From Nitratireductor indicus C115 (GTDB lineage: Bacteria > Pseudomonadota > Alphaproteobacteria > Rhizobiales > Rhizobiaceae): a DNA stretch of 64,000 nt. This document shows, in pieces, positions 3,501 through 33,600 of this stretch. Positions within the stretch are counted from its first letter, which is position 1. Every line of letters begins with the position of its first letter. A program made the position numbers and the translations under genes. The notes under the pieces are model-generated. The model made no database searches and was not told where the DNA came from. It saw only the letters and a list, made by a program, of their open reading frames with translations. Location: NCBI RefSeq assembly GCF_000300515.1, contig NZ_AMSI01000004.1, positions 186,001 to 250,000 of the forward strand, read 5' to 3'.

Positions 3501-4280
3501 GTGACAAGCAGAGAAAAACCATCGAAGACCGACCCGCTGATGGTGCGTTCCGTCGAGAAGGCCTTCCGCGTTCTCTCCGCATTCAACGCGGAGCGTTCCA
3601 CCATGAACCTGTCGCAGATCGCGGCAGAGACCGACCTGGACATGAGCGCGGCGCAACGCTTCACACACACGCTCGTGAAACTGGGATATCTGAACAAGAA
3701 CCCGACAACGCGGCAGTTCGAGCTCAGCGTGAGAACGCTTGATCTCGGCTATCACTTCACGCGCGCCAACCGGCTGATGGAAAGAGCGCTGCCTTATCTG
3801 CAGCACCTGAGCAAGGAAACCGAGGAAACGGTGAACTTGACGATACCGGACGGCACTGAGGTGGTTTTCGTCTCACGCTTCCTCAGCCGGCACGTGCTCA
3901 ACACCGATGTCATCGTGGGGACCAGGCTTCCTGCCTACTGCACGGCACCCGGGCTTGCCATCCTCTCACGACTGCCCGCCGGGGAAGCAGCAGCCATCAT
4001 CGAGGCTTCGGACCTGCGCCCCTTTACGCCACACACGGTCTGGGACAAGACGCAGATCGAGGCACGAATCGTAGAGGCCGGCCAATCCGGCTTTGCCGTC
4101 GCATGCGAGGAAATCTATCATGGCGACGGCTCCGTTGCCGCAGCCATCCTCGATACGGTCGGCCACCCGATTGCCGCGATCAACATAGCGACATCGCTGG
4201 CGCGCTACACCCGCTCCGAACTCGTCGAGCGTTTCGCCCCGCTCGTCGTTGCCGCCGCCAGGTCCATCTCGAAGCTGTGA
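3501..4280 (+). CDS. IclR-family transcriptional regulator
   Basis: 259-residue regulator. An N-terminal winged helix-turn-helix (LSQIAAETDLDMSAAQRFTH, residues ~33-52) is followed by the IclR effector domain, including the GTRLPAYCTAPGLAILS segment that contributes to the ligand pocket. GTG at 3501 is the chosen start, with GAGG about 10 nt upstream; an ATG 13 codons later is possible. It stands between the divergent crotonase/transporter operon and the co-oriented dehydrogenase operon, and identical 15-bp elements precede both. It most likely controls both in response to the imported compound or a CoA derivative. Confidence 0.93.
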   Translation: MTSREKPSKTDPLMVRSVEKAFRVLSAFNAERSTMNLSQIAAETDLDMSAAQRFTHTLVKLGYLNKNPTTRQFELSVRTLDLGYHFTRANRLMERALPYLQHLSKETEETVNLTIPDGTEVVFVSRFLSRHVLNTDVIVGTRLPAYCTAPGLAILSRLPAGEAAAIIEASDLRPFTPHTVWDKTQIEARIVEAGQSGFAVACEEIYHGDGSVAAAILDTVGHPIAAINIATSLARYTRSELVERFAPLVVAAARSISKL

Positions 4281-4329
4281 ACGCGCTCTATTGACAATCC
4301 GTCGATTGCATTCAATCATTTTCATAACG

Positions 4330-4344
4330 ATAATAATTATTGCA
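4330..4344. promoter_or_regulatory. Candidate IclR operator, copy 2 (upstream of dehydrogenase operon)
   Basis: ATAATAATTATTGCA, the exact reverse complement of the element at 3355-3369, ending 11 bp before the ATG at 4356. This position would block transcription or initiation of the downstream operon. The region is strikingly AT-rich against the local background. Confidence 0.6.
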
Positions 4345-4355
4345 ATACGATAGAT

Positions 4356-4715
4356 ATGTCTTCCAGCGACCGAGCTGCGGCCAGTGACGTTCAAAGTGAC
4401 GCTCAATTCGTAGCGGTGGGGCGCCGCAAGGGTGCAGCCATACGGTTTCGCATCGACGGACACGCCATATCGGCCCATTCGGGAGAAAGCGTTCTGTCTG
4501 CCGCGCTCCAGAGCCGTCACATATTGCGCCGTTCGGAATTCACTGGGGAGCCGCGTGCCGGCTTCTGCCTGATGAGCGCCTGTCAGGATTGCTGGATGTG
4601 GAGCGCCGAAGGGAAACGCCTGAGAGCGTGTTCGACACCGATCACTTCCGGTCTCGATCTCTACACCTCGCCGCCGACGCACCTGAAAGGAGGCAAGCCT
4701 TGCGCCAAATCCTGA
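4356..4715 (+). CDS. (2Fe-2S)-binding small subunit, HcnA / opine oxidase C-like
   Basis: 119-residue protein with a plant-type ferredoxin fold, homologous in layout to HcnA and the N-terminal part of sarcosine oxidase alpha. It has a G-x-x-I-SAHSGESVLSAAL segment and clustered cysteines: FCLMSACQDCWMW supplies three and RACSTP a fourth, so a 2Fe-2S centre is plausible. It would pass electrons between the two flavoprotein subunits encoded next. No convincing Shine-Dalgarno precedes the ATG at 4356, which lies directly behind the operator-like element. The 3' end overlaps the next gene by 16 bp. Confidence 0.88.
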   Translation: MSSSDRAAASDVQSDAQFVAVGRRKGAAIRFRIDGHAISAHSGESVLSAALQSRHILRRSEFTGEPRAGFCLMSACQDCWMWSAEGKRLRACSTPITSGLDLYTSPPTHLKGGKPCAKS

Positions 4716-6067
4716 TCATAGGCGCGGGGCCGGCCGGGATGAGCGCCGCCATGGCATTGGCGGAAGCCGGCATTCGACCAATCGTGATCGATGAGAACAC
4801 TCTGGCTGGCGGGCAGGGATTTCGGCAAACCAACCCCGACATCGATCTCGATGCCGATGCGATCTACGGACGCGAATACGGCAGATACCGAGATCTTCAT
4901 TCCAGGTTTCGCAGCTGCCTCGACAAGATCGACCATCGTTCTTCAACGCTCGTCTGGGCCATTCACGACCGAAAGGCGCACACGTTCAACGACAAAGGCT
5001 TCTCCGAAATCGCCTTTGACGGGCTTATCCTTGCTCCCGGCGCCACCGACAGGTTGATGCCCCTCCCCGGCTGGACACTTCCCGGCGTCTTCTCGCTTGG
5101 CGCCGCTCAGGTCGCGCTCAAGGACCAGGGCTGCTTTATCGGTCGCCGGATCGTGTTTGCCGGCAGTTCGCCTCTGCTCCTTCTGGCCGCCCTGCAATAC
5201 CACAAACTTGGCGCACGGCAGCTTTGTGTGCTCGATACCACCCCTTTGCATCACAAGCTCCGCGCCGCGCCGGGGCTTCTCAATTCCGGCCGGACTTTCC
5301 TGCAGGGCCTGTCCTATCTGTGGGCTTTGAAGAAACGCGGCGTGCCCATCCACAATGGTGTCGAGCTACGGGAAATCGAAGGGCAGGACCGGGTGACGGC
5401 AATCCGCTTTTGCGATGCGTCGGGCACCGAACACCGTCTGACCTGCGATGCCGTTGCGCTCGGATATGGGCTGCGCGCCGAAACGCAGCTGGCCGAACTT
5501 GCCGGTGCCGATTTCCGGTTCGACCACCGCCTTCGGCAGTGGCTGCCAAGGGTCGACGAAAACGGTCGCGCCGGTGACTGCCTGTATATCGCCGGCGACG
5601 GCGCTGCGACCGGTGGCGCGTACGCCGCCATCGCCAGCGGCACCCTTGCCGCCACGGCATTGCTGGGCGAACTCGGCATGTCGCAGGCGGGCAAGAACGG
5701 AGCGCACCTTCAAACTCAGGTCGGCAAACTGCGCAGGTTCCAGCATCATCTAGCAACGGCTTTCCGCTGGCCCCATGAAACCGCACAGACCCTGCCCGGC
5801 CATACAATCGTCTGCCGTTGCGAGAACGTAACAGCGGACGACATCCGCACAGCGGCCACACAGGCGTTTGGTCCCGTCGAACTCAACCGCATGAAAGCCA
5901 TAACGCGCTGCGGCATGGGCCGTTGCCAGGGGCGCTTCTGCAGCGCGGCGCTTGCGGAAATCACCGCCGCGGCCTGCGGCAAGCCAATCGACGCCGTGGG
6001 CCGGTTGCGCGCTCAGGCGCCGGTGAAGCCGGTGCCGATATCCACCACGGAAACCGCTCTCCGATGA
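4700..6067 (+). CDS. FAD/NAD(P)-dependent oxidoreductase with BFD-like 2Fe-2S domain, HcnB / opine oxidase A-like
   Basis: 455-residue flavoprotein. The dinucleotide fold ILIIGAGPAGMSAAM opens the protein and a second NAD(P)/FAD region follows near residue 155. The C-terminus carries a BFD-like 2Fe-2S domain with cysteines in IVCRCENV and TRCGMGRCQGRFC. This arrangement is that of HcnB, opine oxidase A and D-hydroxyproline dehydrogenase alpha-type subunits. The start is placed at TTG 4700, in frame and directly behind AAAGGAGG; the longer in-frame reading from 4589 overlaps the previous gene by over 100 bp and lacks family similarity. It is translationally coupled to both neighbours. Confidence 0.9.
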   Translation: MRQILIIGAGPAGMSAAMALAEAGIRPIVIDENTLAGGQGFRQTNPDIDLDADAIYGREYGRYRDLHSRFRSCLDKIDHRSSTLVWAIHDRKAHTFNDKGFSEIAFDGLILAPGATDRLMPLPGWTLPGVFSLGAAQVALKDQGCFIGRRIVFAGSSPLLLLAALQYHKLGARQLCVLDTTPLHHKLRAAPGLLNSGRTFLQGLSYLWALKKRGVPIHNGVELREIEGQDRVTAIRFCDASGTEHRLTCDAVALGYGLRAETQLAELAGADFRFDHRLRQWLPRVDENGRAGDCLYIAGDGAATGGAYAAIASGTLAATALLGELGMSQAGKNGAHLQTQVGKLRRFQHHLATAFRWPHETAQTLPGHTIVCRCENVTADDIRTAATQAFGPVELNRMKAITRCGMGRCQGRFCSAALAEITAAACGKPIDAVGRLRAQAPVKPVPISTTETALR

Positions 6068-7239
6068 CGCAGGAAACAGAGACGATCATCATTGGCGGCG
6101 GTCTGATCGGTGCGTTCACCGCTTATTTCCTTGCCCGTGAGGGGCACCCGGTCACAGTACTTGAGAAGGGTTTCGTGGGGGCACAATCCAGCGGCGCAAA
6201 TTTCGGCAATCTGCGCCTTCAAGGCCGCGATCCGCGCCAATATCCACTCTCCCTCAGGGCGCAGGCCATCTGGGAGGCATTCGAGACGATCGCCGGGGAG
6301 AGCTTCGAATATGATCGCACCGGTCATCTCTACATCGCCCGGAACGAAAAGGAACTCGCCAAGCTCGAGCACCACGCCGAGATTGCACGGCAACACGGCC
6401 TCGACATCGAGATGCTGGCAACGGCAGCCTTGACACAACGCTTTCCCTATCTGGCCACCGACACGCTCGCCGCCACCTTCTGCGGCCGCGACGCGACCGC
6501 CAATCCGCGGCTCGCCACGCCGGTCGTCATGCGCGCGGCGCTTCGGCTCGGCGCAAGGATCGTCGAGCATTGCGAAGCGCTTTCAACCGTGTACACCGGC
6601 TCGCGCTTCGAGGTGGAAACCGCGCAAGGACGGTTCATGTCGAAGACTCTGGTCAACGCGGCGGGTGCCTGGGGCGGTGCTATCGCAGCGCATTTCGGCG
6701 AGCCGGTGCCCGTGTTTTCCGCAGGACCGCCACAATTCGTGACCGAGCCATTTCCGCATGTGATCCGGCCTTCCATGCAGATGGTGAACGGCAGCGTGAT
6801 CTTCCGCCAGATACCGAGGGGCAATGTCATTGTTGCAGGCTATCCGCGCACGGCCAGCGAGGCGGATGGCAATCGCACATTCGTTCCCCCCGGCAAAACG
6901 CTCGCCGGAATGGAAGCGCTCGGTGCCATCGTTCCTCTCCTGCGGGATGCGCATGTCATCCGCGTCTGGTCGGGCGTCGAGGGTTATCTGCCCGACATGC
7001 GCCCGGTCATCGGGCCAAGCCGGACCCAAGACGGGCTCTTTCACGCCTTTGCCTGCTGCGGCCACGGATTTCAAATCGCTCCGGGAATAGGCGCCGTGCT
7101 TGGCGAACTGATCCGCACGGGACAAACGAATACGCCGATTGACGCCTACGATATCGCGCGCTTCAGGGACCAGGTGCCCGACAGCGAGAAATTCATCCAG
7201 GAATTCGACAATCGGGCAATCATCCCTGCCGCCAGATAA
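6064..7239 (+). CDS. FAD-dependent oxidoreductase (DAO family), HcnC / opine oxidase B-like
   Basis: 391-residue DAO-family flavoenzyme with the N-terminal FAD motif IIIGGGLIGAFTAYFLA and the C-terminal CCGHGFQIAPGIG segment typical of D-amino-acid dehydrogenase/glycine oxidase relatives. It should hold the substrate-oxidising site, acting on an amino or imino acid C-N bond, with electrons passing to the HcnA/HcnB-like subunits. ATG at 6064 overlaps the preceding TGA (ATGA). The three genes form one operon at 4356-7239. The substrate is not evident; opine, D-hydroxyproline and glycine-type substrates are all known for this architecture. Confidence 0.9.
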   Translation: MTQETETIIIGGGLIGAFTAYFLAREGHPVTVLEKGFVGAQSSGANFGNLRLQGRDPRQYPLSLRAQAIWEAFETIAGESFEYDRTGHLYIARNEKELAKLEHHAEIARQHGLDIEMLATAALTQRFPYLATDTLAATFCGRDATANPRLATPVVMRAALRLGARIVEHCEALSTVYTGSRFEVETAQGRFMSKTLVNAAGAWGGAIAAHFGEPVPVFSAGPPQFVTEPFPHVIRPSMQMVNGSVIFRQIPRGNVIVAGYPRTASEADGNRTFVPPGKTLAGMEALGAIVPLLRDAHVIRVWSGVEGYLPDMRPVIGPSRTQDGLFHAFACCGHGFQIAPGIGAVLGELIRTGQTNTPIDAYDIARFRDQVPDSEKFIQEFDNRAIIPAAR

Positions 7240-7263: not shown

Positions 7264-8193
7264 TCAGGCCTTGGCGATCCTGGTGCGAAATCGCTCCGTG
7301 CCCCGCTCTATATGATCCAGCAGATCAGCGGCGGCCCAGTGCCGCTCCAGCGGATCGTAATCCACCACCCGGGAATGAGCGCTCGCGAAGGTTCCAAGCC
7401 GCAAATGCCAGAGCTTGGCGAGCTTGGGATACCCCATTCCTTCCGCCATGCCGGAAAGAGCCAGAAAGACCGCGAGATCCCGCATCAGCTCCGTGTCCTC
7501 GTCCCTGTGATCGTACATCCAGGCATAGAGGTCGGGATGGAAATTGCCGAACACGCCGCCGAACCCGCGCGAGCCCGCACGCATGGCGGCAAGCGCAATC
7601 GCCGCATTGGCGTTGACGATGGCAAAGGGCGTGCCGGCCGTCATCGCGGCCCTGCGGGCTACCGTCGGCAGATCGCAACTGACATCCTTCAAGACGGCGA
7701 AGCGGCCAGTGTCCATGCACAGTTTCAGCTCATCGTCGCTGAGCAGGCGGCGATAAGGTGCGGGGCATTCATAGAGCCCGAGCGGCAAATCGGCGGGCAG
7801 AGCCTTCATGATCGCTTCGAGCGCATGCCGGAACGCCTCGGAACCTGCATTTTTCGGGTCCAGCCTGTTGGTCACCAGAACCAGCGCATCGACGCCGGTT
7901 TCGGCCATGGCCTTCAATTCGACCAGCTGATCCTCCAGCGCCTCTGAGATGTGCCCTGAAGCAATGACGGGCAACCGCCCCCGCGCGAACTCCAGCGTAT
8001 GGCGCGCCAGGAGAACGCGCTCTTCAAGGCTCAGCCTCTGCATTTCGCTCGACTGGCACGCGGCGAACAATGTCTGCGCGCCGCCTTCGACATACCAGTC
8101 CGTCAGTCGCGCAAGCCCATCCTCGTCGATGCGGTCCGCCGGTGTGAATGGCGTGAGCATCACCGGCACGAGACCGTCAATCCTGATCTTCAT
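7264..8193 (-). CDS. Dihydrodipicolinate synthase/N-acetylneuraminate lyase (DapA) family protein
   Basis: 309-residue TIM-barrel class I aldolase. The Schiff-base lysine is in FAVLKDVS (near residue 170) and the conserved tyrosine in LGLYECPAPY. The usual GTTGE carboxylate-binding loop is replaced by ACQSSEMQ, which argues against lysine biosynthesis and for a catabolic aldolase or dehydratase acting on a 2-oxo acid. The start at ATG 8193 (MKIRIDGLVPVML) fits the family; MKPADG 24 nt upstream is an alternative. It is divergent from the VCBS-protein gene, and the shared promoter region contains the 17-bp palindrome also found before the IclR gene at 16340-17176. Confidence 0.9.
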   Translation of the reverse strand: MKIRIDGLVPVMLTPFTPADRIDEDGLARLTDWYVEGGAQTLFAACQSSEMQRLSLEERVLLARHTLEFARGRLPVIASGHISEALEDQLVELKAMAETGVDALVLVTNRLDPKNAGSEAFRHALEAIMKALPADLPLGLYECPAPYRRLLSDDELKLCMDTGRFAVLKDVSCDLPTVARRAAMTAGTPFAIVNANAAIALAAMRAGSRGFGGVFGNFHPDLYAWMYDHRDEDTELMRDLAVFLALSGMAEGMGYPKLAKLWHLRLGTFASAHSRVVDYDPLERHWAAADLLDHIERGTERFRTRIAKA

Positions 8194-8245
8194 TTCGCGT
8201 CCATCTGCAGGTTTCATTTGCCACGCTATATGATACGAGATGAAA

Positions 8246-8262
8246 TTGGAATAGGATTCCAA
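8246..8262. promoter_or_regulatory. 17-bp palindromic operator, copy 1 (DapA/VCBS divergent promoter)
   Basis: TTGGAATAGGATTCCAA, perfect 7-bp arms around AGG. An identical 17-mer lies at 17223-17239 in front of the IclR gene. Here it ends 4 bp before the Shine-Dalgarno GGAGGAG of the VCBS gene and 53 bp from the DapA-family start. IclR-type binding sites of the TGGAAAT-N-ATTTCCA kind are similar in size and sequence. Confidence 0.75.
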
Positions 8263-8280
8263 AAACGGAGGAGAAGCATT

Positions 8281-10251
8281 TTGAGCGTGACCCGGTGGGA
8301 GGATGACGCGTCGGTCTGGACCGGCCCGTCCTATGTGGATCAGGCAATCGCCTATCATCCCGATGTCAGTTCGGCCCCGGTCGCAGGCCGCATCATCACC
8401 TGTGTCGACGTGGTTGACTGGGATGGCGACGGCGGTCGCGATCTGCTCCTGTCCAGTTGGGACACCTGCTATGAGGGCCGCGTCTTTGTCTATCCACAGA
8501 TCGGGACGAAACCGGATGGCACGCCGATCCTGGGCGGCGAACAGATTGTCGAGGGCGTGCGTGGCTATGTCACCGCCGTACGCGATGGCGACCGCTTCCA
8601 TCTCCTCTCCGTGTCGCGGATGCGCCGGCAGATCTATCTGTTTCCCAATACCGGCACCGCGCGCGAGCCGCGCTTTGGTAATCCGGTGGTTCTCGATCTC
8701 GAGGCGGACTGGGTCAAGGGCAACGAATATTTCCACATGGCCCGCTTTCACGATATCGACGGCGACGGCGTTCCCGAACTCGTCGTGGGCACCGATTCAT
8801 GGGACGATTACTGGCCGAACGGCCTGGAATGGAACGATGTCGGCTATCGCGCCTACGATGCGGCGGGCCGCTGGCTGGGCGGGCCGCTGCGCGGTTTCCT
8901 ATATGCCTTCAAGAACACGGGAACGCTGAGCGCACCGGTGCTCGGGCGCGGCAGACCGGTCCTCGGGGGAGAGACCCCGCTTGAGGTCTACGGGCAATGC
9001 GCGCCGGCCTTCGGAGATTTCACCGGCGATGGGCGCGACGCAGTGATATGCGGCGAATTCTGGAACATCCTGCACTTCGCGCGCCAGACCGGGCCCAGCG
9101 CCTTTGAGCAGCCGAAGCTGGTGGCCGATACCGCCGGCGCTCCGGTGCTTCTCGATCAGTGCATCCATCTGCCCTGCGCCGTCGACTGGGACGGCGACGG
9201 GCGGCTCGACATTCTGGTCGGCGCCGAGGACGGCTATGTGACATTCCTCCGCAACATAGGCACCGGCCCCGATGGGCGACCGGCCTTCGAAAAGATCGGG
9301 CGCGTGGAAGGCGTTGAGCCCTCGATACATGCCGGCGTCCTGCCCTCGCCCGCCGCCCACGACTTTTCCGGCAACGGCCTGCCCGACCTCGTGGTCGGCA
9401 ACAGCACCGGCGAGCTTCTATTCTACGAGAATCTCGGCCCGCGCGAAGCACCGGGACTTGCACGGGAAGTCATGATCGAGGCGGGCGGAAAACCGGTGCG
9501 CATCGCCGCCGGCCTGACGGGCTCGATCCAGGGGCCGTCGGAAAAGATGTTCGGCTATTCCTGCCCCACGATTGCCGACTGGGATGGCGACGGTCTGCCC
9601 GATCTTCTCGTCAGCGACGTCAACGGCCACCACAATTTCTACCGCAATGACGGAGGAAGGGTGCCACCGCGTTTCGAAGCGCCGCGCCCGCTGACCTGGC
9701 AGGGCAAGCCGCTGAAGACGGTCTGGCGGGTGCGCCCGGCCGTGATCGACTGGCTCGGCGACGGCCAGCTTCATTATCTCGCGCTGGATGAAGATGGCGT
9801 GTTGTCGGATTTCCGCCGTGCGTCCGACACCGAACTTGCCGATAAACGGCATCTGCGGTGGGAAGACGGCACCCAAATGCGCTTCACGCAGGATGTCGGC
9901 GGCGGTCGCGGACGCGTGAAACTGTGCGCCGTGGACTGGACCGGCGATGGCCGGATCGATCTCGTTATCGGTACGCATGCGCGCGCCTCCGTGCCGCCCG
10001 GTCCCGCCGGCCAGCCGCGCAACACGACCGGTCAAGCAGGCATATTCCTGCTCAAGAACATCGGCTCCAACGCTGAGCCGGCTTTCGCCTTCCCGAAGGC
10101 GTTCAGGTTTCGCGGCGAAACGATCCAGATGGCGATGCATGTCGCCTCCCCCGAAGCCGTCGATTGGGACGGCAGCGGCAAGCTCGGCCTGCTGGTCGGC
10201 GTGGAAGACGGCAGTCTGGTGTGGCTGAAGCGGGATGACCTCTCATGGTAG
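8281..10251 (+). CDS. Cytosolic VCBS/FG-GAP repeat protein (predicted beta-propeller), function unknown
   Basis: 656-residue protein with nine D-x-[DTSL]-G-[DNS]-G motifs, for example VDWDGDGGRDLL near residue 44, HDIDGDGVPELV near 157, VDWDGDGRLDILV near 301, ADWDGDGLPDLLV near 432 and VDWTGDGRIDLVIG near 551. These are calcium-binding loops of FG-GAP/VCBS blades, so a seven- or eight-bladed propeller is likely. Most such proteins are secreted, but no signal peptide or membrane segment is present. TTG at 8281 is the start, 8 nt after GGAGGAG. The gene overlaps the next one by 7 bp. Its place among an aldolase, two AroE-like dehydrogenases and an isomerase suggests an enzyme (lyase, lactonase or isomerase) acting inside the cell; that is inference. 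Confidence 0.85.
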   Translation: MSVTRWEDDASVWTGPSYVDQAIAYHPDVSSAPVAGRIITCVDVVDWDGDGGRDLLLSSWDTCYEGRVFVYPQIGTKPDGTPILGGEQIVEGVRGYVTAVRDGDRFHLLSVSRMRRQIYLFPNTGTAREPRFGNPVVLDLEADWVKGNEYFHMARFHDIDGDGVPELVVGTDSWDDYWPNGLEWNDVGYRAYDAAGRWLGGPLRGFLYAFKNTGTLSAPVLGRGRPVLGGETPLEVYGQCAPAFGDFTGDGRDAVICGEFWNILHFARQTGPSAFEQPKLVADTAGAPVLLDQCIHLPCAVDWDGDGRLDILVGAEDGYVTFLRNIGTGPDGRPAFEKIGRVEGVEPSIHAGVLPSPAAHDFSGNGLPDLVVGNSTGELLFYENLGPREAPGLAREVMIEAGGKPVRIAAGLTGSIQGPSEKMFGYSCPTIADWDGDGLPDLLVSDVNGHHNFYRNDGGRVPPRFEAPRPLTWQGKPLKTVWRVRPAVIDWLGDGQLHYLALDEDGVLSDFRRASDTELADKRHLRWEDGTQMRFTQDVGGGRGRVKLCAVDWTGDGRIDLVIGTHARASVPPGPAGQPRNTTGQAGIFLLKNIGSNAEPAFAFPKAFRFRGETIQMAMHVASPEAVDWDGSGKLGLLVGVEDGSLVWLKRDDLSW

Positions 10252-11063
10252 CCCCGGCCCTGGCAGTCAACGGATCGACGAAGATCATGGGCGTGATCGG
10301 GGACCCGATCGCACAGGTGATGACCCCGACGACGATCAATCCGATCTTCGCGGCCCGGGGGGCCAACATCGTGTGCGTGCCGCTGCACATAGACGCCCGC
10401 GAGCTCGACACGGCCTGGGCGGGCCTCAAGGCGCTCAGAAATCTGATCGGTTTCGGCATCACCCTGCCGCACAAACAGGCGGCACTGGCGCTTTGCGACA
10501 GTCTCGACCCGCTCGCTAAACGGGTCGGGGCGGTCAATCTCGTACGGCGGGAAGCCGACGGCACCTTCAGGGGTTACCAGTTCGACGGCAAGGGCTTCGT
10601 GCGCGGTTTGAAGGCACAAGGCCACACGCTTTCCGGCAGCCATTGTCTCATGGTCGGTGCAGGCGGCGCGGCGATAGCGATAGCCTTCGCCCTTGCCGAG
10701 GAAGGGGCCGCTTCGCTGACCATTGCCAACCGCACCCGCACAAAAGCCGAGGAACTGGCAGACGCCGTGAACCGCGCGATGGGCCGATCCTTCGCGCGGG
10801 CCGGAGACCCGCGGCCCACGCCCGGAGAGATCATCATCAACGCAACTTCGCTCGGCCTTTCCGCAAGCGATCCCCTGCCCATCGACGCGAGCCTTGTGGA
10901 CGAAACGATGCTGGTCGCGGAGGTAATCGCCAAGCCTGAAGTGACGCCGCTGCTTCAAGCCGCGCACGCCCGCGGCGCACGCGTCCATTCGGGCATTCAC
11001 ATGATCCGCGGGCAGGTCGACCTCATTGCCGCTCACATAGCCGAAGTACAGACGGACAGCTGA
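10245..11063 (+). CDS. Shikimate dehydrogenase-like protein (AroE family), paralogue 1
   Basis: 272-residue NADP-type dehydrogenase. The catalytic lysine is in ITLPHKQAA and the partner Asp in GYQFDGKGFVRGL; the nucleotide fold is MVGAGGAAIAIAFAL near residue 140, with NRTRTK in the 2'-phosphate-binding position. The usual shikimate-contacting serines (HSxSP) are replaced by AQVMTP, so the substrate may be a quinate-, aminoshikimate- or unrelated hydroxy acid. ATG 10245 overlaps the VCBS stop by 7 bp, so the two are co-translated. It converges with paralogue 2, ending 3 bp away. Confidence 0.9.
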   Translation: MVAPALAVNGSTKIMGVIGDPIAQVMTPTTINPIFAARGANIVCVPLHIDARELDTAWAGLKALRNLIGFGITLPHKQAALALCDSLDPLAKRVGAVNLVRREADGTFRGYQFDGKGFVRGLKAQGHTLSGSHCLMVGAGGAAIAIAFALAEEGAASLTIANRTRTKAEELADAVNRAMGRSFARAGDPRPTPGEIIINATSLGLSASDPLPIDASLVDETMLVAEVIAKPEVTPLLQAAHARGARVHSGIHMIRGQVDLIAAHIAEVQTDS

Positions 11064-11065
11064 AA

Positions 11066-11890
11066 TCAGAGCGGCGTTCCGGCCTCGCACCCGGCCGCAA
11101 AGCCCGCGATCAGCGCGATCTGCGCCTCGAGCATGTCGCGGCCATCGCTTGTTGCAGCCCCCCGCTGGCGGGCGAGCTTCAGAAGTTCCGTATCCCGCGC
11201 CAGCGCTGCGATGTCGGCCACCAGCATATGCGGTCCGACCCCATCGAGATCGACCGGGAAAGCATCCGTGGATTTCAATCCGATCGGCGTCGCGTTGATC
11301 AGCACGTCGATACCCGCGAGACCACCGGAAGCACGCTGCGCGACCGGTTCTTCCAGCACACGATTGACCATGCCGATGGTAAATTCGACTGCGCTCTCAT
11401 CGACATCGATCACCGACAGCCGGCCTATCCGTTCGCCGGCCAAAGCGTGGGCGATGGCGCGTCCCGCGCCGCCGGCACCGACAAGCAGCACCGATGCTCC
11501 CGCAAGGCGGCCCCGGTTGCCGGCCAGCCCACGCACGAAGCCCAGCCCATCGAAAAGCGCGCCATGCATGGAGCCGTCGCCCCGGCGCTGGATGGAGTTC
11601 ACCGCACCGACAGCGGCGGCGGCAGGGGTCAGCTCATCGCACAGGCGAGCGGCCGCGATCTTGTGCGGCACCGTCACGCCGATGCCCGCCACATTGTCCA
11701 TCGCCGCGAAAACACGCCAGGCGGCCTCGAAATTCTCGCGGGTCACATGGAAAGGGACGGCATAGAGATCGACGCCCTTTGCCGCGAACATCGGATTGAT
11801 GAGGGTGGGTGTCTGGACCTGGGCCACAGGATCGCCGAACACCGCATAGATGCGCGAGGCGCCGCCCAGATTTGGAATGGTGTCGCTCAT
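11066..11890 (-). CDS. Shikimate dehydrogenase-like protein (AroE family), paralogue 2
   Basis: 274-residue paralogue of the gene at 10245-11063. It has VTVPHKIAA with the catalytic Lys, FDGLGFVRGL with the Asp, and LLVGAGGAGRAIAHAL as nucleotide fold; VIDVDES follows instead of NRT, pointing to NAD rather than NADP. The substrate loop reads AQVQTPTLINP, again lacking the SxS serines. The start at ATG 11890 has GGGGAGGA about 9 nt upstream. It is the last gene of the minus-strand operon that begins with the IclR gene, immediately after the TIM-barrel isomerase. Two paralogues with different cofactor signatures suggest an oxidation/reduction (epimerising) pair; this is inference. Confidence 0.9.
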   Translation of the reverse strand: MSDTIPNLGGASRIYAVFGDPVAQVQTPTLINPMFAAKGVDLYAVPFHVTRENFEAAWRVFAAMDNVAGIGVTVPHKIAAARLCDELTPAAAAVGAVNSIQRRGDGSMHGALFDGLGFVRGLAGNRGRLAGASVLLVGAGGAGRAIAHALAGERIGRLSVIDVDESAVEFTIGMVNRVLEEPVAQRASGGLAGIDVLINATPIGLKSTDAFPVDLDGVGPHMLVADIAALARDTELLKLARQRGAATSDGRDMLEAQIALIAGFAAGCEAGTPL

Positions 11891-11897
11891 GATCTCG

Positions 11898-12740
11898 TCA
11901 TCCTCCCCAAAAGATGCTCCGGCATCGCGCGAGAGCCGTATCGAGGACAAGGTCGGGGTCTTCCGCCCACCATCGATCCGAGAATATCTCGATCTCGACA
12001 GGACCGTCGTAGCCGGCAGCCCGGACCTGACGCCACATTCCGGCCAGGTCGATGATGCCATCCCCCATCATGCCGCGATCGCGCAGGACATGCTTCGTCG
12101 GCACCAGCCAGTCGCTGACATGGAAACCCAGTATCCTGCCGGCGGCACCGGCGCGGGAGAGCTCCGTCTCCAGGCGCTCATCCCACCATATGTGATAGGC
12201 ATCGGCCACGATGCCGATCCCCTCGCCCAGCTGTTCGCAGATGGCATTGGCGTGACTGAGGCTCAGGATTACCGCGCGGTCGCCGGCGACCATGGGATGC
12301 AGCGGCTCCAGCGCCAGCGTCATCCCCACAGAGCGCGCATGATCGAGAAGCGCGCCGATCGCATCCTCGGTCTGCGCCCGTGCGCCGGCGAGATCACGGC
12401 TTCCCTCAGCGAGACCGCCGGAGAAAACCAGAACGTGGTCCGCCGCGAGTTCGGCGGCCATGTCCACGGCGCGCCGCGCACGGTCGAGACATTCCGCCCG
12501 ACCGGCGGCCCCCGCCGCCAGAAGCGGCCCTGCCCGGTTGAAACCGAACGTGGAGATGCCCGTGCGGGAGAGCATCCTGCGGGCCTCTTCAAGCCCGGCC
12601 TTGTCGACCTCCTCGCCCCACAGGGACGCTCGCGACAAGCCACGCGCGGCGCATCCTTCAAGGAAAGGTTCAAGCCCCCATCTCTCGCGAACGGTCGCTT
12701 CATTGAAGATGAATTCGGGCGATTGCAGCGCTTCGACCAT
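11898..12740 (-). CDS. Sugar phosphate isomerase/epimerase-like TIM-barrel protein
   Basis: 280-residue xylose-isomerase-like (AP endonuclease family 2) barrel. Likely metal ligands are Glu in LALEPLHP, Asp/His in VADAYHIWW, His in GFHVSDW and Glu in VEIEIFSDRWW. This family includes hydroxypyruvate isomerases, inosose isomerases and 3-dehydroshikimate dehydratases (AsbF/QuiC types). Next to two AroE-like dehydrogenases, a dehydroshikimate-dehydratase-like role is possible but unproven. It begins 9 bp after the ABC ATPase stop and ends 7 bp before the AroE-2 start, so it belongs to the same operon. Confidence 0.88.
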   Translation of the reverse strand: MVEALQSPEFIFNEATVRERWGLEPFLEGCAARGLSRASLWGEEVDKAGLEEARRMLSRTGISTFGFNRAGPLLAAGAAGRAECLDRARRAVDMAAELAADHVLVFSGGLAEGSRDLAGARAQTEDAIGALLDHARSVGMTLALEPLHPMVAGDRAVILSLSHANAICEQLGEGIGIVADAYHIWWDERLETELSRAGAAGRILGFHVSDWLVPTKHVLRDRGMMGDGIIDLAGMWRQVRAAGYDGPVEIEIFSDRWWAEDPDLVLDTALARCRSIFWGG

Positions 12741-12749
12741 GATGCTGCG

Positions 12750-13601
12750 CTAGAATTTGTAGACGCCGAGCTTCTCGAAAATCCGATAGATTCTTTCGGC
12801 GTATTTCGAGAACTCGGGATACTCGCCCAGATGCGCCGGGCGCGGGCGCGGCAGATCGATGATGATTTCTTCTACAATCGTGCCAGGGCTCTTCGACATC
12901 ACCAGAACGCGATCCGACAGACCCACGGCCTCCTCGATGGAGTGGGTGATGAACAGCACCGTTTTGCGTGTCTCCAACCAGAGCATTTCCAGATCATGTC
13001 GAATTTGCGTGCGCGTGATCGCGTCGAGCGCGCCGAAAGGCTCGTCCATCAAGAGCATCGAGGGATCGTGAACCAGAGCGCGCGCAATCGACACGCGCTG
13101 GCGCATACCGCCGGAGAGCTGCCACGGATACCGGTTTTCCGCGCCAGAGAGACCGAGCCGTGCGAAGAGAGCGTCAGCACGCTCCCTGAGCGTGGCCCTG
13201 TCGAGCCCCCGGATCTCCTGCTGCAGCATGACATTGTTGATGGCAGTGCGAAAATCCAGAAGCAGGTGGTCCTGGAAAACAATGCCTATCTCTGAAATGG
13301 GGGCGGTGAGCGGTTTCCCGTCAATCTCCACCGTGCCGGCGCTCGACGGCTCCAGCCCCGTCACCAGAAGCATGGTCGTGCTCTTGCCGCATCCTGACGG
13401 GCCGATGATGGAGACGAACTCCCCCGGCTTGATATCCAGATCGATGGGCCCCAGCGCGTGAAAGGCATTTTCTCCGCTGCCGAAAACCTTCGTCAGCCCG
13501 CGCGCGTTGATAGAGGCGCCCGCAGCGCTCGCGCCACCGACCGGATGCACCAGACCGGAAGAAGTTCGGGCTTTCATGTCTGCCATGGTCATGTCCATCA
13601 T
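12750..13601 (-). CDS. ABC transporter ATP-binding protein, NitT/TauT (SsuB) family
   Basis: About 283 residues. Walker A GPSGCGKSTT, Q-loop IVFQDHLLLDF, signature LSGGMRQRVSIARAL, Walker B MLLMDEPFGALD and H-loop FITHSIEEA are all present, as in SsuB/TauB/ThiZ ATPases. The start is uncertain among clustered in-frame ATGs at 13601, 13598, 13592, 13586 and 13577; 13601 gives a 17-bp gap to the permease stop. It energises the two permeases at 13619 and 15570 with the binding protein at 14517. The substrate is probably a small organic anion or aromatic acid linked to the adjacent catabolic genes. Confidence 0.9.
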   Translation of the reverse strand: MMDMTMADMKARTSSGLVHPVGGASAAGASINARGLTKVFGSGENAFHALGPIDLDIKPGEFVSIIGPSGCGKSTTMLLVTGLEPSSAGTVEIDGKPLTAPISEIGIVFQDHLLLDFRTAINNVMLQQEIRGLDRATLRERADALFARLGLSGAENRYPWQLSGGMRQRVSIARALVHDPSMLLMDEPFGALDAITRTQIRHDLEMLWLETRKTVLFITHSIEEAVGLSDRVLVMSKSPGTIVEEIIIDLPRPRPAHLGEYPEFSKYAERIYRIFEKLGVYKF

Positions 13602-13618
13602 TGTCGCTTTGTCCGGGT

Positions 13619-14440
13619 TCAGTGTCTGGACCACGGCATCAGCCATTGCCCGATAATGCTCATCGCACCGTTGAACATCAGCGCCACGATCGCCGCGGCC
13701 ACCAGCCCGGAGAACATCAGCGTCATGTCCATGAATGCCGAGGCACGCACGATCATGAAGCCCAGCCCTTTGTTGGAGGCGATGAACTCGGCGATGATGA
13801 CGCCCTCGACCGCCTTCACCACGCCGATCTTCATGCCCGAGAAGATATGCGGCATGGCGGCCGGCAGCCTGACCTTCCAGAAGGTCTGCCACGGGTTCGC
13901 TCCCATGGACCGCGAAATATAGAAGAGCCTGCGGTCGACCAGCCGGAAACCCGACATGGAATCGACCAGAACCGGAAAGAAACTCATCAGGAAAACGATC
14001 AGCGCGGCAACCAGCGGGCCGATGCCGAACCAGATGATCAGGATGGGTCCGATCACCGTCTTGGGCATGATGTTGAGAAACACGATAACGGGATAAAGTC
14101 CCCGCTCCAGCGCTCCGACCGAAACGATTGCCAAGGCCAGCGGGATTGCCACCAGCACGCCAAGGGTGAAGCCCTCCACGATTGTAAGGGAAGTCCAGAA
14201 TGCGTGGCCGGCGATCAATGCCCTGTCCGTATAAAGCCGCACCAGGAAATCCGATGGCTTGGGCGCAAGCCATACGGGCACTTCGAAGTAACGAAGGGCG
14301 GCTTCCCACAATCCCAGCAGCAACAGCACCGCCACCGTCCCAATCAGGACGGAAGAAAAATACGAGCCACCGAACGCCGCCATGAGACGGGCACGCGTGC
14401 CGGATTGTGCTGGCACCATGGCAGAAGCTGTTTGCGACAT
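13619..14440 (-). CDS. ABC transporter permease, NitT/TauT (SsuC) family, permease 2
   Basis: 273-residue inner-membrane permease with about six hydrophobic helices (SVLIGTVAVLLLLGLWEAAL; LGVLVAIPLALAIVSV; ALIVFLMSFFPVLVDS) and an EAA-type ATPase-docking loop before helix 5 (YISRSMGANPWQTFWKV). The N-terminal 28 residues are a cytosolic tail. It lies between the binding-protein and ATPase genes of the same operon. A second, distinct permease gene at 15570-16328 suggests a heterodimeric pore rather than the homodimer usual for this family. Confidence 0.92.
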   Translation of the reverse strand: MSQTASAMVPAQSGTRARLMAAFGGSYFSSVLIGTVAVLLLLGLWEAALRYFEVPVWLAPKPSDFLVRLYTDRALIAGHAFWTSLTIVEGFTLGVLVAIPLALAIVSVGALERGLYPVIVFLNIMPKTVIGPILIIWFGIGPLVAALIVFLMSFFPVLVDSMSGFRLVDRRLFYISRSMGANPWQTFWKVRLPAAMPHIFSGMKIGVVKAVEGVIIAEFIASNKGLGFMIVRASAFMDMTLMFSGLVAAAIVALMFNGAMSIIGQWLMPWSRH

Positions 14441-14516
14441 GCCTACGAAACTTTCCGCGTGAGATTGATGTCCGGGCGTCTTGCACGCCCGGACAGGATC
14501 CTGCGACCAACCAGCC

Positions 14517-15518
14517 TCAGGGGCAGGTAACCGGCGTTTCCGGCAAATAGTCGAGCGTATAGTAATCCGTCACCGGCTTGGTGCCGGGAAGGTTCATCGC
14601 CGAGGTCATGACGCTGTACATCTTTTCCCAGGTCTCGGCGTCCGTCACGCCGATAGCGTCACCCGAACCGCCGGGGCAGACCGATGCGAAGCTGAACTTT
14701 GCCGACTGAAGGAGGTTCTCCTTCGAATGCGCCGTCTCCGGGAATATCTCGAGCAGAGCATCAACTGCCGCTTCGGGGTCCTTCATCGCTTCCTGCCAGC
14801 CCAGCGCCGTCGCTTCGACAAAACGCTTGTAGACATCCGGATTGGCCTGGAGCTTGTCCTCACGCGCCACCAGGGCGAGGCTCGCGATGGGAACGCCGTT
14901 GTTGTAGAAGTACATATTGCCGGCCTCGATACCCTGGGCAGCGAGCGGCACCACGATGTTCTCAGGCGTCTGCGACACCGCATCGACCTGCTTGGACGTC
15001 AGAAGGCCGATAAAAGCACTTTCCGCCGCCGAAACGATCTCCACCTGGGACTCCTCGATGCCGTTGGCACGCAGGAAAACCGGAATGAGCGGCAGCATGG
15101 CCGACCCCGGAGACACCGCCAGCTTCTTGCCGATGAGATCCTTCGGTTCCTTGATGCCGGAATCGGCCAGATACTGGATGCCGAACTGGCCAGACTTCCA
15201 GATTGTCGCGATGATCCTGATTGGCGCGCCCTGCGCGGCGACATTGAGCGTCGCGCCCGTGTCGGCATAGCCGAGCTCGGTCTGCCCAGTCGCCACAAGC
15301 TGCGCGGCCACGGCAGATCCGCGCCCCTCGGTCAGGGTGACATCGAGATCATGGTCCTTGTAGATGCCCTTGGCCTGAGCCACCGCGAATCCGAGATGCG
15401 CGGAATCGGCCGTCCAGTTCATCTGCATCTGGAGCTTGTCCTGCGCCAGCGCGGGAACGCCTCCTGCAAGCAATGCGAACATTGCCCCCGCCGCCACATG
15501 CCTCAATTTGAACTGCAT
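14517..15518 (-). CDS. ABC transporter substrate-binding protein, SsuA/NMT1-THI5-like
   Basis: 333-residue periplasmic binding protein. A Sec signal peptide (HVAAGAMFALLAGGVPALAQ, cleavage near residue 25) precedes the NMT1/THI5-like start DKLQMQMNWTADSAHLGFAV. This family binds aromatic or alkyl sulfonates, nitrate, thiamine precursors and phthalate-like acids. The WTADSAHLGFAVAQAKG segment resembles the pyrimidine/aromatic-binding subgroup. Start ATG 15518 has AGGGAGGAA directly upstream. It is located between the two permease genes. Confidence 0.92.
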   Translation of the reverse strand: MQFKLRHVAAGAMFALLAGGVPALAQDKLQMQMNWTADSAHLGFAVAQAKGIYKDHDLDVTLTEGRGSAVAAQLVATGQTELGYADTGATLNVAAQGAPIRIIATIWKSGQFGIQYLADSGIKEPKDLIGKKLAVSPGSAMLPLIPVFLRANGIEESQVEIVSAAESAFIGLLTSKQVDAVSQTPENIVVPLAAQGIEAGNMYFYNNGVPIASLALVAREDKLQANPDVYKRFVEATALGWQEAMKDPEAAVDALLEIFPETAHSKENLLQSAKFSFASVCPGGSGDAIGVTDAETWEKMYSVMTSAMNLPGTKPVTDYYTLDYLPETPVTCP

Positions 15519-15569
15519 TCCTTCCTCCCTTTGTTTTTTCGTGATGCTTGTTCCTCGATCACGAACCGG

Positions 15570-16328
15570 TCAGCGCCGCCGCCAGGGCAGCAATGTCCTT
15601 TCAGCCAGTTCCATCCCCCAACTGAGCAAAACGCCGATCATCGAGCCCACCACGAGCACCGCGAAGATCAGCGACGTGTCGGAATCGTCCATTCCCCGAA
15701 GAACCAGATAGCCAAGTCCGTTCTGCGAATTCATCCACTCCACGACGATCACCACCGTGACCGCGATGACGACCGTGATCTTGAAACCGGAAAAGATGCT
15801 TGGCGCGGCGGACGGCAGCTCGAAGAGGCGGAATGTCTGCCACCACGAGGCCCCCACCGAGCGGCTCAGATAATACTGCCGGGGGTCGATGGATTTGAAA
15901 CCGGTGACGCTGTCGACCAGGATCGGAAAGAAAGTGATCAGCGCGGTGAGCAGGATTTTCGGAAAATCCGCGAAGCCGAACCAGACCAGCATCAGCGGCG
16001 CAAGCGTGATCTTCGGCAGACCCTGGATGAAGACGACGAGCGGATAGAGCACCTGCTCGGCGAGCCGGAATTTCGCGATCAGATAACCAAGCACGACGCC
16101 GGGAATGGCGCCCGCGACGAAGCCGTAGATGATCAGTCGCGTCGTCACCAGCGCATGGTAGCCCAGCCTCTGATAATCCTCGACAATGCGCGACAGGAAT
16201 TGCGACGGTGCCGGCAACACGTAGATCGGCACATGGAGTGCCCTGACCAGCACCTCCCAGATCAGCAGCAGGCCGGCGAACCAGAGGATCGGTTCCAAAA
16301 AACGCTGCAAGATCGGAATGCGCCGCAT
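15570..16328 (-). CDS. ABC transporter permease, NitT/TauT (SsuC) family, permease 1
   Basis: 252-residue permease with about six helices (WFAGLLLIWEVLVRAL; LLTALITFFPILVDSV; LIFAVLVVGSMIGVLLSW) and the ATPase-docking loop YYLSRSVGASWWQTFRL. It starts 11 bp after the IclR stop, so the regulator gene is the first gene of this operon. It is paralogous to the permease at 13619-14440 but shares only the general fold and loop pattern. Confidence 0.92.
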   Translation of the reverse strand: MRRIPILQRFLEPILWFAGLLLIWEVLVRALHVPIYVLPAPSQFLSRIVEDYQRLGYHALVTTRLIIYGFVAGAIPGVVLGYLIAKFRLAEQVLYPLVVFIQGLPKITLAPLMLVWFGFADFPKILLTALITFFPILVDSVTGFKSIDPRQYYLSRSVGASWWQTFRLFELPSAAPSIFSGFKITVVIAVTVVIVVEWMNSQNGLGYLVLRGMDDSDTSLIFAVLVVGSMIGVLLSWGMELAERTLLPWRRR

Positions 16329-16339
16329 CGCCCGTTACC

Positions 16340-17176
16340 TCAAACTTCCGCAGGTGCCTGCGGACGCGGTGCCGTCACAGCAGGCTGATATCCGCGCTGG
16401 CGACTTCGCAAAGACCAGATTTCGGCAACCTCCACGGCAGCCTTCTTGAGAGCGGTCGCAAGCTCCTCGTAGCGTTCGGGCGTGATCCGCACCAGGGGAC
16501 CGGCAACGCTCATCGTGCCGGCGACAGGCGCATCCGGCCCAACCCCATTGAAGAAGGGCACCGCCACGGCACCCGTCCCAGCCTCTGCCTCCTCGATGGA
16601 GGTGCCATATCCACGCTCACGCGTTTCGACGAGCCGCGCGCGAAATTCGTCGACATTGGTCGCGCTATTGGGTCCCAGAGGCCGGCGCGCGCCGAAACCG
16701 CGGGCGCAGACAATGCGCAACGCCTCGGATTCCGGAAGCGTGGAGAGCCAGGCCTTTCCGTTGGCCGTGGCATGCAGAACGATCTCCTGCCCCATCTCGG
16801 GATCGTAGCGCAGGCCCGTGACGGCCCCCTGCGCACGGGCGACCCAGACGAGATCCTCGCCCTCGACAATGGCCAGCCGGCAATATTCACGCGTTTCGCG
16901 TGCCAGCTTGTCCAGAACCGACTGGACCACATCGGGCACCGCACGGACATCGAGATTGCGGAAGGCAAGCGTGCTCATGCGAAGCGAGAGTGCATAGCGC
17001 TGGGTTCCGCTGTGCTGCAGTACCCATCCACGCGAGACGAGCGTCGTCAACGTGCGGTGAACCGCACTTGCCGGCATGCCCAGCCGGTTGGCGAGATCCG
17101 TCAATTCGATCGGTTCGCGCTCGCCGGCAAGCGCCTCCAATATCGTCAGACAGCGGTCTATTGCGGCAACGGTCAA
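16340..17176 (-). CDS. IclR-family transcriptional regulator of the DapA/VCBS/AroE/ABC locus
   Basis: 278 residues. The winged helix-turn-helix is ELTDLANRLGMPASAVHRTL (residues ~24-43); the effector domain includes VLHATANGKAWLSTL and YGTSIEEAEAGTGAVAVP. The start is taken as TTG 17176, 5 nt after GGGAGG. An in-frame ATG at 17254 would place the palindrome at 17223-17239 inside the coding region, where it would encode LESYSN-type residues with no family similarity. The operator then lies 47-63 bp upstream of the start, fitting autoregulation. It is first in a seven-gene operon ending with the AroE-like gene at 11066. Confidence 0.9.
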   Translation of the reverse strand: MTVAAIDRCLTILEALAGEREPIELTDLANRLGMPASAVHRTLTTLVSRGWVLQHSGTQRYALSLRMSTLAFRNLDVRAVPDVVQSVLDKLARETREYCRLAIVEGEDLVWVARAQGAVTGLRYDPEMGQEIVLHATANGKAWLSTLPESEALRIVCARGFGARRPLGPNSATNVDEFRARLVETRERGYGTSIEEAEAGTGAVAVPFFNGVGPDAPVAGTMSVAGPLVRITPERYEELATALKKAAVEVAEIWSLRSRQRGYQPAVTAPRPQAPAEV

Positions 17177-17214
17177 CCATTCCTCCCTGGTCAGAACAGA
17201 ATATACAACAGCTA

Positions 17215-17239
17215 ATTCCAAATTGGAATAGGATTCCAA
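17215..17239. promoter_or_regulatory. 17-bp palindromic operator, copy 2, with an extra half-site (IclR operon promoter)
   Basis: The perfect palindrome TTGGAATAGGATTCCAA (17223-17239) is identical to the one at 8246-8262 and extends to 9-bp arms. A third half-site ATTCCAA begins at 17215, so the order is ATTCCAA-A-TTGGAAT-AGG-ATTCCAA. Triple half-sites are known for some IclR regulators (PcaU/PobR type). Confidence 0.75.
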
Positions 17240-17468
17240 TTTTGATGAAATCATATGAAAGGCGAGCCTATCACATCAACGCCCGGTCAGGCGCTTACAG
17301 GATCGGTCGATGAGAATGAAGGCGCGTGCCATAATGCCAATGCGGCGAAGGTTCCGGCAGGTTTCCGATCCGGATCGAACGGTTGCTTCCGTGTCACCGT
17401 TTTCGGCCTCGCTGCCAGGACGCGCGGGGTGCATGAGGAGCGCACGGACCAAGCATGAGATTCAGCCA

Positions 17469-32784: not shown

Positions 32785-33600
32785 CTACCAGTTCATGGTT
32801 CTGGACAGCTTTTCGGCGGCAAGCCGCAGTTCGGGGAGGAAATTTTGCTCCAGGTCCTCCACGGAATGACGGGCCGTGGAGGTCGAATTGTTGAGGGCAG
32901 CCACCACGCGTCCGTTTTCGCCGATGATCGGAACCGCGATGGAACGAATGCCGATTTCCAGTTCCTCGTCGATTACGGAATAGCCGCGCTCGCGCACGCG
33001 CCCGATCTCGGCCACGAAGGCTTTGCGGTCGGTGATGGTGTGCGGCGTGAGAGGGCGGAGCGGGTACTTGTCGAGCCAGCGCTCGAGCTTGACGTCGGAC
33101 AGCCCGCCAAGAAGAACCCTGCCGATGGACGAGCAGAACGCCGGCAGCCTCGTGCCGTTGACGATGCGCGAGGAATAGATGCGCCGCACCTCCACCCGCT
33201 CGATATAGACGATCTCTTCCTCATCGAGGATGCCGACGGACGCCGATTCGTCGACACGCTGGGTGAGCTCCTGCAGGATGGCCGCGGAAGCGTCACCAAG
33301 CCCGAGAGGCGTCATGAAACCATTGGCCAGCCCCAGGATCTTGGGCGTCAGCCAGAAGTGCTTCCCGTCGGAATCGAGATAATGCAACTCCTTCAGCGTC
33401 AGCAGAAGGCGCCTGGCCGTTCCCCGCGTCAGGCCGGTCAGTTTGCCGGCATCGGTAAGCGTCAACCGACCGCGCTGACGCACCGAAACTGGGTCGGAAT
33501 AACATTCCAATATGCTCAGGCCGCGCGCCACGGCCTCGACGAAATCCGAGCTCTGCCGGATTGTCTCCTCGCCTTCCTCGTTGCCATCCGGGCCGGTCAT
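32785..33600 (-). CDS. IclR-family regulator, PcaR/PcaU-like
   Basis: 271 residues. Helix-turn-helix LTDAGKLTGLTRGTARRLLL (residues ~43-62). The effector domain has VYIERVEVRRIYSSRIVNGT, FCSSIGRVLLGGL and VIDEELEIGIRSIAVPI, matching the PcaR/PobR/PcaU group that responds to protocatechuate or beta-ketoadipate. Start ATG 33600 has GGAAGG 4 nt upstream. It is divergent from the PcaIJ-like operon and downstream-adjacent to the Liv operon. Both carry TGTTCG-N5-CGRACA sites, so it probably controls uptake and degradation together. Confidence 0.92.
   Translation of the reverse strand: MTGPDGNEEGEETIRQSSDFVEAVARGLSILECYSDPVSVRQRGRLTLTDAGKLTGLTRGTARRLLLTLKELHYLDSDGKHFWLTPKILGLANGFMTPLGLGDASAAILQELTQRVDESASVGILDEEEIVYIERVEVRRIYSSRIVNGTRLPAFCSSIGRVLLGGLSDVKLERWLDKYPLRPLTPHTITDRKAFVAEIGRVRERGYSVIDEELEIGIRSIAVPIIGENGRVVAALNNSTSTARHSVEDLEQNFLPELRLAAEKLSRTMNW

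Follow-up and report, generated by a model that had tools for sequence, protein, structure and literature searches.

The Iol pathway for myo-inositol comprises a cyclic-polyol dehydrogenase, a TIM-barrel step, a PfkB-type kinase and an aldolase. IclR-family proteins regulate mainly genes for aromatic compounds, and operators of three boxes in alternating direction have been described for 32 IclR orthologous groups, with site centres lying mostly 20-80 nt before the genes (available text of PMC8222616). The locus described here lies within a 64,000-nt stretch of the Nitratireductor indicus C115 genome (contig NZ_AMSI01000004.1, positions 186,001 to 250,000; hereafter the window) and joins an IclR regulator gene to nine further genes, among them one for a VCBS/FG-GAP propeller protein (Table 1). 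Family searches returned every gene type that a preliminary description, made from the sequence alone, had named: DapA-like, VCBS, two AroE-like, TIM barrel, ATP-binding cassette (ABC) ATPase, two permeases, NMT1 and IclR. This set is very probably a regulon and its role is likely catabolic; the fuller reading, a mobile catabolic regulon whose IclR protein controls its own gene and which acts on a cyclic polyol or sugar-acid-like compound by stepwise chemistry, is favoured with some reserve, and the particular chemistry of import, AroE, TIM, propeller and DapA steps is put forward only tentatively. Operator conservation, co-occurrence, gene families, the AroE and DapA catalytic residues and the propeller model are computationally supported.

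One conserved palindrome of putative IclR type is shared by the gene set. An identical 17-mer had been reported in the gap between the DapA and VCBS genes (8246-8262) and before the IclR gene (17223-17239), and both copies were confirmed. Exact TTGGAATNNNATTCCAA sites number two in the whole 5-Mb assembly, both in this locus, and places with one mismatch also number two (window 33494 and contig C8). Within the window, five 17-mer matches with at most three mismatches were listed, against a mean of 0.10 in window shuffles; these are the two sites, each on both strands, and one three-mismatch site at 33494, which adjoins a different IclR-type gene and was left out of the count. The latter near-copy, TCGGAATAACATTCCAA (33494-33510), stands beside an IclR-type gene with 29% identity to the IclR of 3501-4280.

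Conservation of the operator was scored by scanning 120 bp upstream for the best match to 14 fixed positions, before 36 VCBS genes (the window, 26 of the 27 loci with a VCBS match, and nine plasmid loci) and 29 IclR genes. A match of at least 10/14 starts 35-49 bp before VCBS in 35/35 usable loci; on the IclR side the distance is 44-65 bp, in 29/29 loci. One locus (L024) was dropped from the VCBS-side count because its upstream stretch is truncated, and is still within the mean. The mean best match was 12.25/14 on the VCBS side, against 8.15 in shuffled sequence (highest shuffled mean 8.5), and 12.03/14 on the IclR side, against 7.97 (highest 8.31). The loci are interdependent: their VCBS-side sites comprise 17 different 17-mers, L024 included, and their IclR-side sites 27. 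Shuffles replaced P values from random local stretches, which are inflated because such stretches may hold the site itself. Another set of 12 genomes of the same family (L039-L050), nine of them, judged by contig coordinates, already among the 36 loci and three additional (G019, G121 and G046), yielded a VCBS-side site of at least 11/14 in 11.

The IclR protein possesses both HTH_IclR (E 1.7e-16) and IclR_C (E 2.5e-27) domains, each above its cut-off. Its start is best placed at TTG 17176 rather than ATG 17254, given a Shine-Dalgarno sequence and orthologue alignments; the ATG would put the 17223 site within the gene. A third box in alternating direction accompanies the palindrome at 17215-17239, and a third TGGAA box beside the IclR-side palindrome was seen by eye in 16/19 aligned rows, being partial in L010 and L018 and absent from L029. 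The VCBS-side site of the window has no third box and starts 11 nt past a TATGAT, a spacing that would suit a repressor site near a transcription start. Gene orientation fits three predicted units: DapA leftward, VCBS-AroE1 rightward, and IclR to AroE2 leftward.

Table 1. Genes and putative operators of the locus (window coordinates).
Feature	Position	Strand	Evidence and remarks
DapA-family class I lyase/aldolase, 309 aa	7264..8193	-	PF00701 E 4.8e-21; below cut-offs of all 6 NCBIfam models listed
Palindromic operator TTGGAATAGGATTCCAA (putative)	8246..8262		Divergent DapA/VCBS promoter region; sequence match and conservation
VCBS/FG-GAP protein, 656 aa	8281..10251	+	FG-GAP_3 E 9e-29; TTG start after GGAGGAG
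AroE-like dehydrogenase 1 (AroE1)	10245..11063	+	NADP-type NRT motif; ATG as listed overlaps VCBS stop
AroE-like dehydrogenase 2 (AroE2)	11066..11890	-	NAD-type acidic motif
TIM-barrel (AP_endonuc_2) isomerase/lyase	11898..12740	-	PF01261 E 3e-32; conserved E-D-H-E pattern; PDB 3ju2, 3qc0, 7vpf
NitT/TauT-type ABC ATP-binding protein	12750..13577	-	Family searches; start inferred
ABC permease B	13619..14440	-	Family searches
NMT1-type substrate-binding protein	14517..15518	-	PF09084 E 4.6e-45; PDB 4nmy, 3ix1
ABC permease A	15570..16328	-	Family searches
IclR-family regulator	16340..17176	-	HTH_IclR and IclR_C; start inferred; orthologue in 13/13 VCBS genomes
Three-box IclR-type operator (putative): ATTCCAA, A, TTGGAATAGGATTCCAA	17215..17239		Extra ATTCCAA box at 17215-17221

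Co-occurrence was assessed in 199 genomes of the same family, the source genome included. A VCBS orthologue is present in 13/199, and the same 13 possess AroE1 (59-100% identity, directly downstream of VCBS; other AroE hits at most 45%), the TIM-barrel protein (at least 55%; other matches at most 48%), IclR (at least 57%; other matches at most 46%) and DapA (at least 63%). AroE2 is present at 54% or more in 12/13, being missing in G186, and the NMT1 binding protein in 8/13. The adjacency of VCBS and AroE1 in 13/13 genomes bears out the conservation of the neighbourhood on which the preliminary description depended. Its proposal of a single system is supported for the co-occurring genes with the conserved palindrome, and does not extend to the NitT importer (NMT1 binding protein, BPD permeases and ATPase), which lies outside the constant core and, being found in only 8/13, does not define the system. 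VCBS, AroE1, TIM, IclR and DapA make up the constant core; AroE2 is almost always present, and the importer is exchangeable. In two genomes the IclR orthologue lies ~119 kb (G019) and ~161 kb (G121) from VCBS, and its retention at such distances indicates an association beyond neighbourhood alone. Pairwise distances of the six proteins correlate at 0.82-0.95, which linked or shared inheritance alone could explain. At these thresholds no match to VCBS, AroE1, DapA, TIM or IclR was obtained in G040, which belongs to the same genus as the source genome.

The 27 loci with a VCBS match, many of them truncated at a contig end or at the limit of the 10-kb flank, contain AroE1 in 26, IclR in 22, TIM in 21, DapA in 18, AroE2 (as best hit) in 14 and NMT1 in 13. 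The best VCBS matches, at 91-95%, are in records titled Nitratireductor, and three loci (L009, L025, L027) belong to records whose titles bear Rhodobacterales names; when 385 genomes of the class were searched with a profile, VCBS was found at E 1e-25 only in the window's own genome. Some VCBS match is present in 34 plasmid records, covering at least 80% of the protein in 21 of these. The gene unit is narrow in distribution, patchy and transferable. A contig titled as a Spirochaetales metagenome-assembled genome (L024) has a 99% partial match to the window VCBS and is probably mis-binned. A partial VCBS stretch with 47% identity in Sinorhizobium terangae (L031, 2017-2729), beside another IclR-type gene, is perhaps a remnant or paralogue.

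The cluster exists in two versions. The Nitratireductor-like version is arranged as DapA / VCBS-AroE1 / AroE2-TIM-NitT importer-IclR. The Rhizobium/Agrobacterium version (L035, L036, L068-L070) comprises a ribokinase-like kinase, a small hypothetical protein (annotated LysE-type once, in L033), IclR, VCBS and AroE1, together with an SMP-30 lactonase, a Gfo/Idh/MocA protein, usually a second IclR, a ugp-type sugar ABC transporter and an aldo-keto reductase and, where the stretch suffices, TIM, AroE2, DapA and a 2-keto-4-pentenoate hydratase-like or hypothetical gene. Three Agrobacterium plasmids carry both importers. Several of the plasmid loci (L033-L037, L065-L070) contain more IclR-type palindromes before the second IclR and ugp-type ABC genes, which are perhaps sites of the second IclR. 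AroE2 is annotated as a ThiF family adenylyltransferase in L033 and L034 (16829-17656), L037 (16818-17648) and L067 (14829-15656), and the L034 protein so annotated belongs to the AroE family in NCBIfam.

Both AroE proteins possess a Shikimate_dh_N domain and retain the catalytic Lys and Asp. The shikimate-binding motif is SxSP, which is present as SRSP in the AroE encoded on contig C9 of the same genome; both AroE proteins of the locus lack it, having VMTP and VQTP instead, and their NTD motif is replaced by QFD/LFD. They score 166.6 and 146.4 bits against the TIGR00507 cut-off of 200.2; with 19 and 21 NCBIfam models listed for them, neither reaches any cut-off. The absence of SxSP from both, when the contig C9 protein has it, makes quinate and shikimate less likely as substrates acted on directly. 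A conventional pathway for quinate/shikimate or an aromatic acid, in which AroE would be a quinate dehydrogenase, would accord with AroE family membership, with the frequent control of aromatic and quinate/shikimate genes by IclR proteins (available text of PMC8222616) and with the upstream genes of Rhizobium NXC14, which include another AroE and one for an HPPD-domain sugar isomerase; given the altered motifs and scores, and since the ten genes include neither a dehydroquinase nor a convincing dehydroshikimate dehydratase, it is very improbable. The QuiC match of the TIM protein reaches 28.9 bits against a cut-off of 1200. Across 23 aligned sequences the DHDPS domain of DapA keeps its Lys and Tyr (LYECPAPYRR and LKDVSCD), presumably the Schiff-base Lys and the expected Tyr; DapA scores 62.5 bits, below the TIGR00674 (dihydrodipicolinate synthase) cut-off of 206.15.

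FG-GAP_3 repeats and calcium-loop-like motifs place the VCBS protein in the VCBS/FG-GAP superfamily. It has no signal peptide and is, as predicted from its sequence, cytosolic. Models, structure comparison, hydropathy and repeats yield ten blades, best read as two five-bladed propellers. Conservation extends over the full length, with 273/656 residues invariant across 21 sequences, and is especially high around residues 141-204 and 538-549. Identity in the more distant loci is 64-72% for VCBS, 59-67% for AroE1, 59-64% for AroE2 and 53-59% for TIM; the means are 69.0% for VCBS, 65.4% for DapA and 71.1% for IclR, and the importer is more conserved than VCBS.

Several observations weigh against a regulon centred on a propeller enzyme. 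The weakest operator sites match at just 10/14 (VCBS side of L013, L030 and L068; IclR side of L020), and G046 (L046), whose IclR is the most divergent orthologue (57%), has no recognisable site before VCBS, its best match of 9/14 being equal to background. The 26-30 kb fetched of Agrobacterium plasmids L033, L034 and L067 contain the VCBS site and no IclR orthologue, and the AroE beside VCBS on plasmid NZ_CP147998.1 is merely 47% identical. DapA orthologues at 57-62% occur in 10 further genomes without VCBS, and two more at 42%. A promoter scan lists no sigma-70 promoter at 8100-8400, on the VCBS side, and predicts one before IclR that was not seen in relatives; the TATGAT box is visible only in the window, L005, L007, L010, L018 and L021. 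Repression is something we infer, since TATGAT is patchy in relatives and the scan is empty at VCBS and unconserved at IclR. The mainly aromatic targets of IclR proteins (available text of PMC8222616) disfavour a sugar-like substrate. For the propeller, conservation is weak evidence of catalysis, because VCBS is barely above DapA and below IclR and the importer. The protein has no NCBIfam match; solved structures gave no match to its sequence with an E value of 1 or below and a single one to its profile, at E 0.43, judged to be chance. Foldseek TM-scores are low among the matches listed, at most 0.41 for the whole model and 0.48 for a half.

Propellers are often scaffolds or lectins, a further point on the same side. 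The VCBS protein could lack catalytic activity and serve, as a scaffold or by binding sugar, to organise the AroE enzymes, with all the chemistry residing in the other enzymes. VCBS propellers include lectins and integrins (available text of PMC8023676), the C-terminal half has sugar lectins among its best Foldseek hits and resembles PLL/PVL lectins and KICSTOR subunits, and the VCBS-AroE1 gene overlap suggests a fixed ratio. This alternative is considered rather improbable, since VCBS is more conserved than AroE1, AroE2 and TIM and has highly conserved stretches, a weak argument given that IclR and the importer are equal or higher. A different role, that of a glycosidase or glycoside lyase in the cytosol, representing a new family with a five-bladed shape like GH43/GH159, would have the cluster degrade an imported glycoside, its sugar half being handled through the plasmid Gfo/Idh/MocA, lactonase and aldo-keto reductase. 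Pfam, however, matched the protein only to FG-GAP-like families and not to GH43, a common propeller shape proves no function, and Gfo/Idh/MocA and lactonase genes are absent from the ten Nitratireductor genes; the glycosidase role is thus unlikely, if somewhat less so than the scaffold.

For the favoured catabolic regulon, we infer a course of events from binding and repression, through ligand and substrate, to the order of steps and an enzymatic role of the propeller. The IclR protein would bind the conserved palindrome and repress its own long operon (two permeases, NMT1, ATPase, TIM and AroE2) as well as the divergent DapA and VCBS-AroE1 units, and binding of the imported compound or a metabolite to IclR would release all units. 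The NitT-type importer, or a sugar-type ABC transporter in many rhizobia and agrobacteria, would take up a cyclic polyol or sugar-acid-like compound, whose ring hydroxyls the NADP- and NAD-type AroE-like enzymes may oxidise or epimerise. The metal-dependent TIM barrel would then isomerise or dehydrate, the cytosolic tandem propeller would carry out an elimination or ring-opening, and the DapA-like lyase would cleave the resulting 2-oxo acid. The sequence of oxidation, propeller step and aldol cleavage put forward in the preliminary description is plausible. A bolder reading, possible though doubtful, makes the VCBS protein the first member of a new family of cytosolic enzymes. Its two five-bladed propellers in tandem would open, or carry out an elimination on, a cyclic polyol already oxidised by AroE, and this reaction would be central to a catabolic pathway, so far undescribed and often carried on plasmids, in alphaproteobacteria that live in soil, in the sea or with plants. 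The presence of the set on conjugative agrobacterial and on rhizobial plasmids suggests selection by a plant compound. Should the regulon be as proposed, it would add a pathway of catabolism in which two AroE enzymes are not of the shikimate type and a propeller enzyme works in the cytosol; it would also assign a purpose to a conserved gene set that plasmid records now label shikimate dehydrogenase, ThiF family and VCBS repeat protein.

Surroundings were also taken for related genes elsewhere. For eight of the 10 genomes that have DapA and lack VCBS (L051-L058), ORFs (open reading frames) were clustered and families were searched for 10 chosen ORFs. L052 has a GntR regulator alongside a DctP-type TRAP (tripartite ATP-independent periplasmic) binding protein, ORFs resembling these occur in other loci, and L053 has a major facilitator superfamily transporter with a LacI regulator; two of the 10 searched ORFs had no match. 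These surroundings fit sugar-acid use and name no substrate. Six further AroE-like surroundings were taken (L059-L064), and in L059-L062 ABC, thiamine-enzyme-like, SDR (short-chain dehydrogenase/reductase), TRAP and CoA-transferase-like genes were recognised by eye, from which no substrate follows. The AroE-like gene of L059 (7821-8606), from the same genome and 45% identical to AroE1, has neighbours that look by eye like thiamine-enzyme, branched-chain-type ABC and SDR genes. Within the window, at 3501-7239, an IclR gene is followed by Fer2_4, Pyr_redox_2/sarcosine-oxidase-A3 and DAO proteins and adjoins ABC importer genes and an enoyl-CoA hydratase, a set that we take to resemble opine- or amino-acid-oxidase sets (ooxAB/hcnABC-like).

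The preliminary description had recognised no pathway for the gene set, and searches of the open-access literature listed no paper that, by its title and abstract, describes the set; subscription papers and supplements lie outside this scope, and the supplement tables of PMC8222616 may list the regulator. Three-box IclR regulons (PcaU, PobR, HmgR) share the IclR regulator and boxes of alternating direction, and differ in target genes and motif, TGGAAT-N3-ATTCCA here against TGRAACA-N1-2-TGTTYCA in group 2 (available text of PMC8222616). Agrobacterium operons for glycoside 3-oxidation and beta-elimination (AtOGE) likewise have a TIM-barrel metal enzyme and Gfo/Idh/MocA genes, whereas the words VCBS and shikimate are absent from the main text of PMC10628242. 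Aldos-2-ulose dehydratase (AUDH) and RGL11 lyases are carbohydrate-active enzymes with VCBS-type blades (available text of PMC8023676); AUDH shows no match in sequence and neither enzyme is among the fold-comparison matches listed, though either may still be related by fold. The AUDH propeller is seven-bladed according to the same text, whereas the VCBS protein has ten blades as two five-bladed rings, is predicted to be cytosolic and has no PDB sequence match. The AroE-fold relatives 4k28, which has the AQVxxP motif of AroE1, and 5-ketofructose reductase (7cok) belong to the same family, but at only 138 and 107 bits to AroE1 their substrate is not transferable. The likeness to the Iol pathway is one of logic only: IolG, IolD and IolB were not found among the ten genes by family searches, and a kinase counterpart is present only in the plasmid versions. 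In this locus an AroE-like protein stands for IolG and a DapA-like protein for IolJ, with an extra propeller and an IclR regulator.
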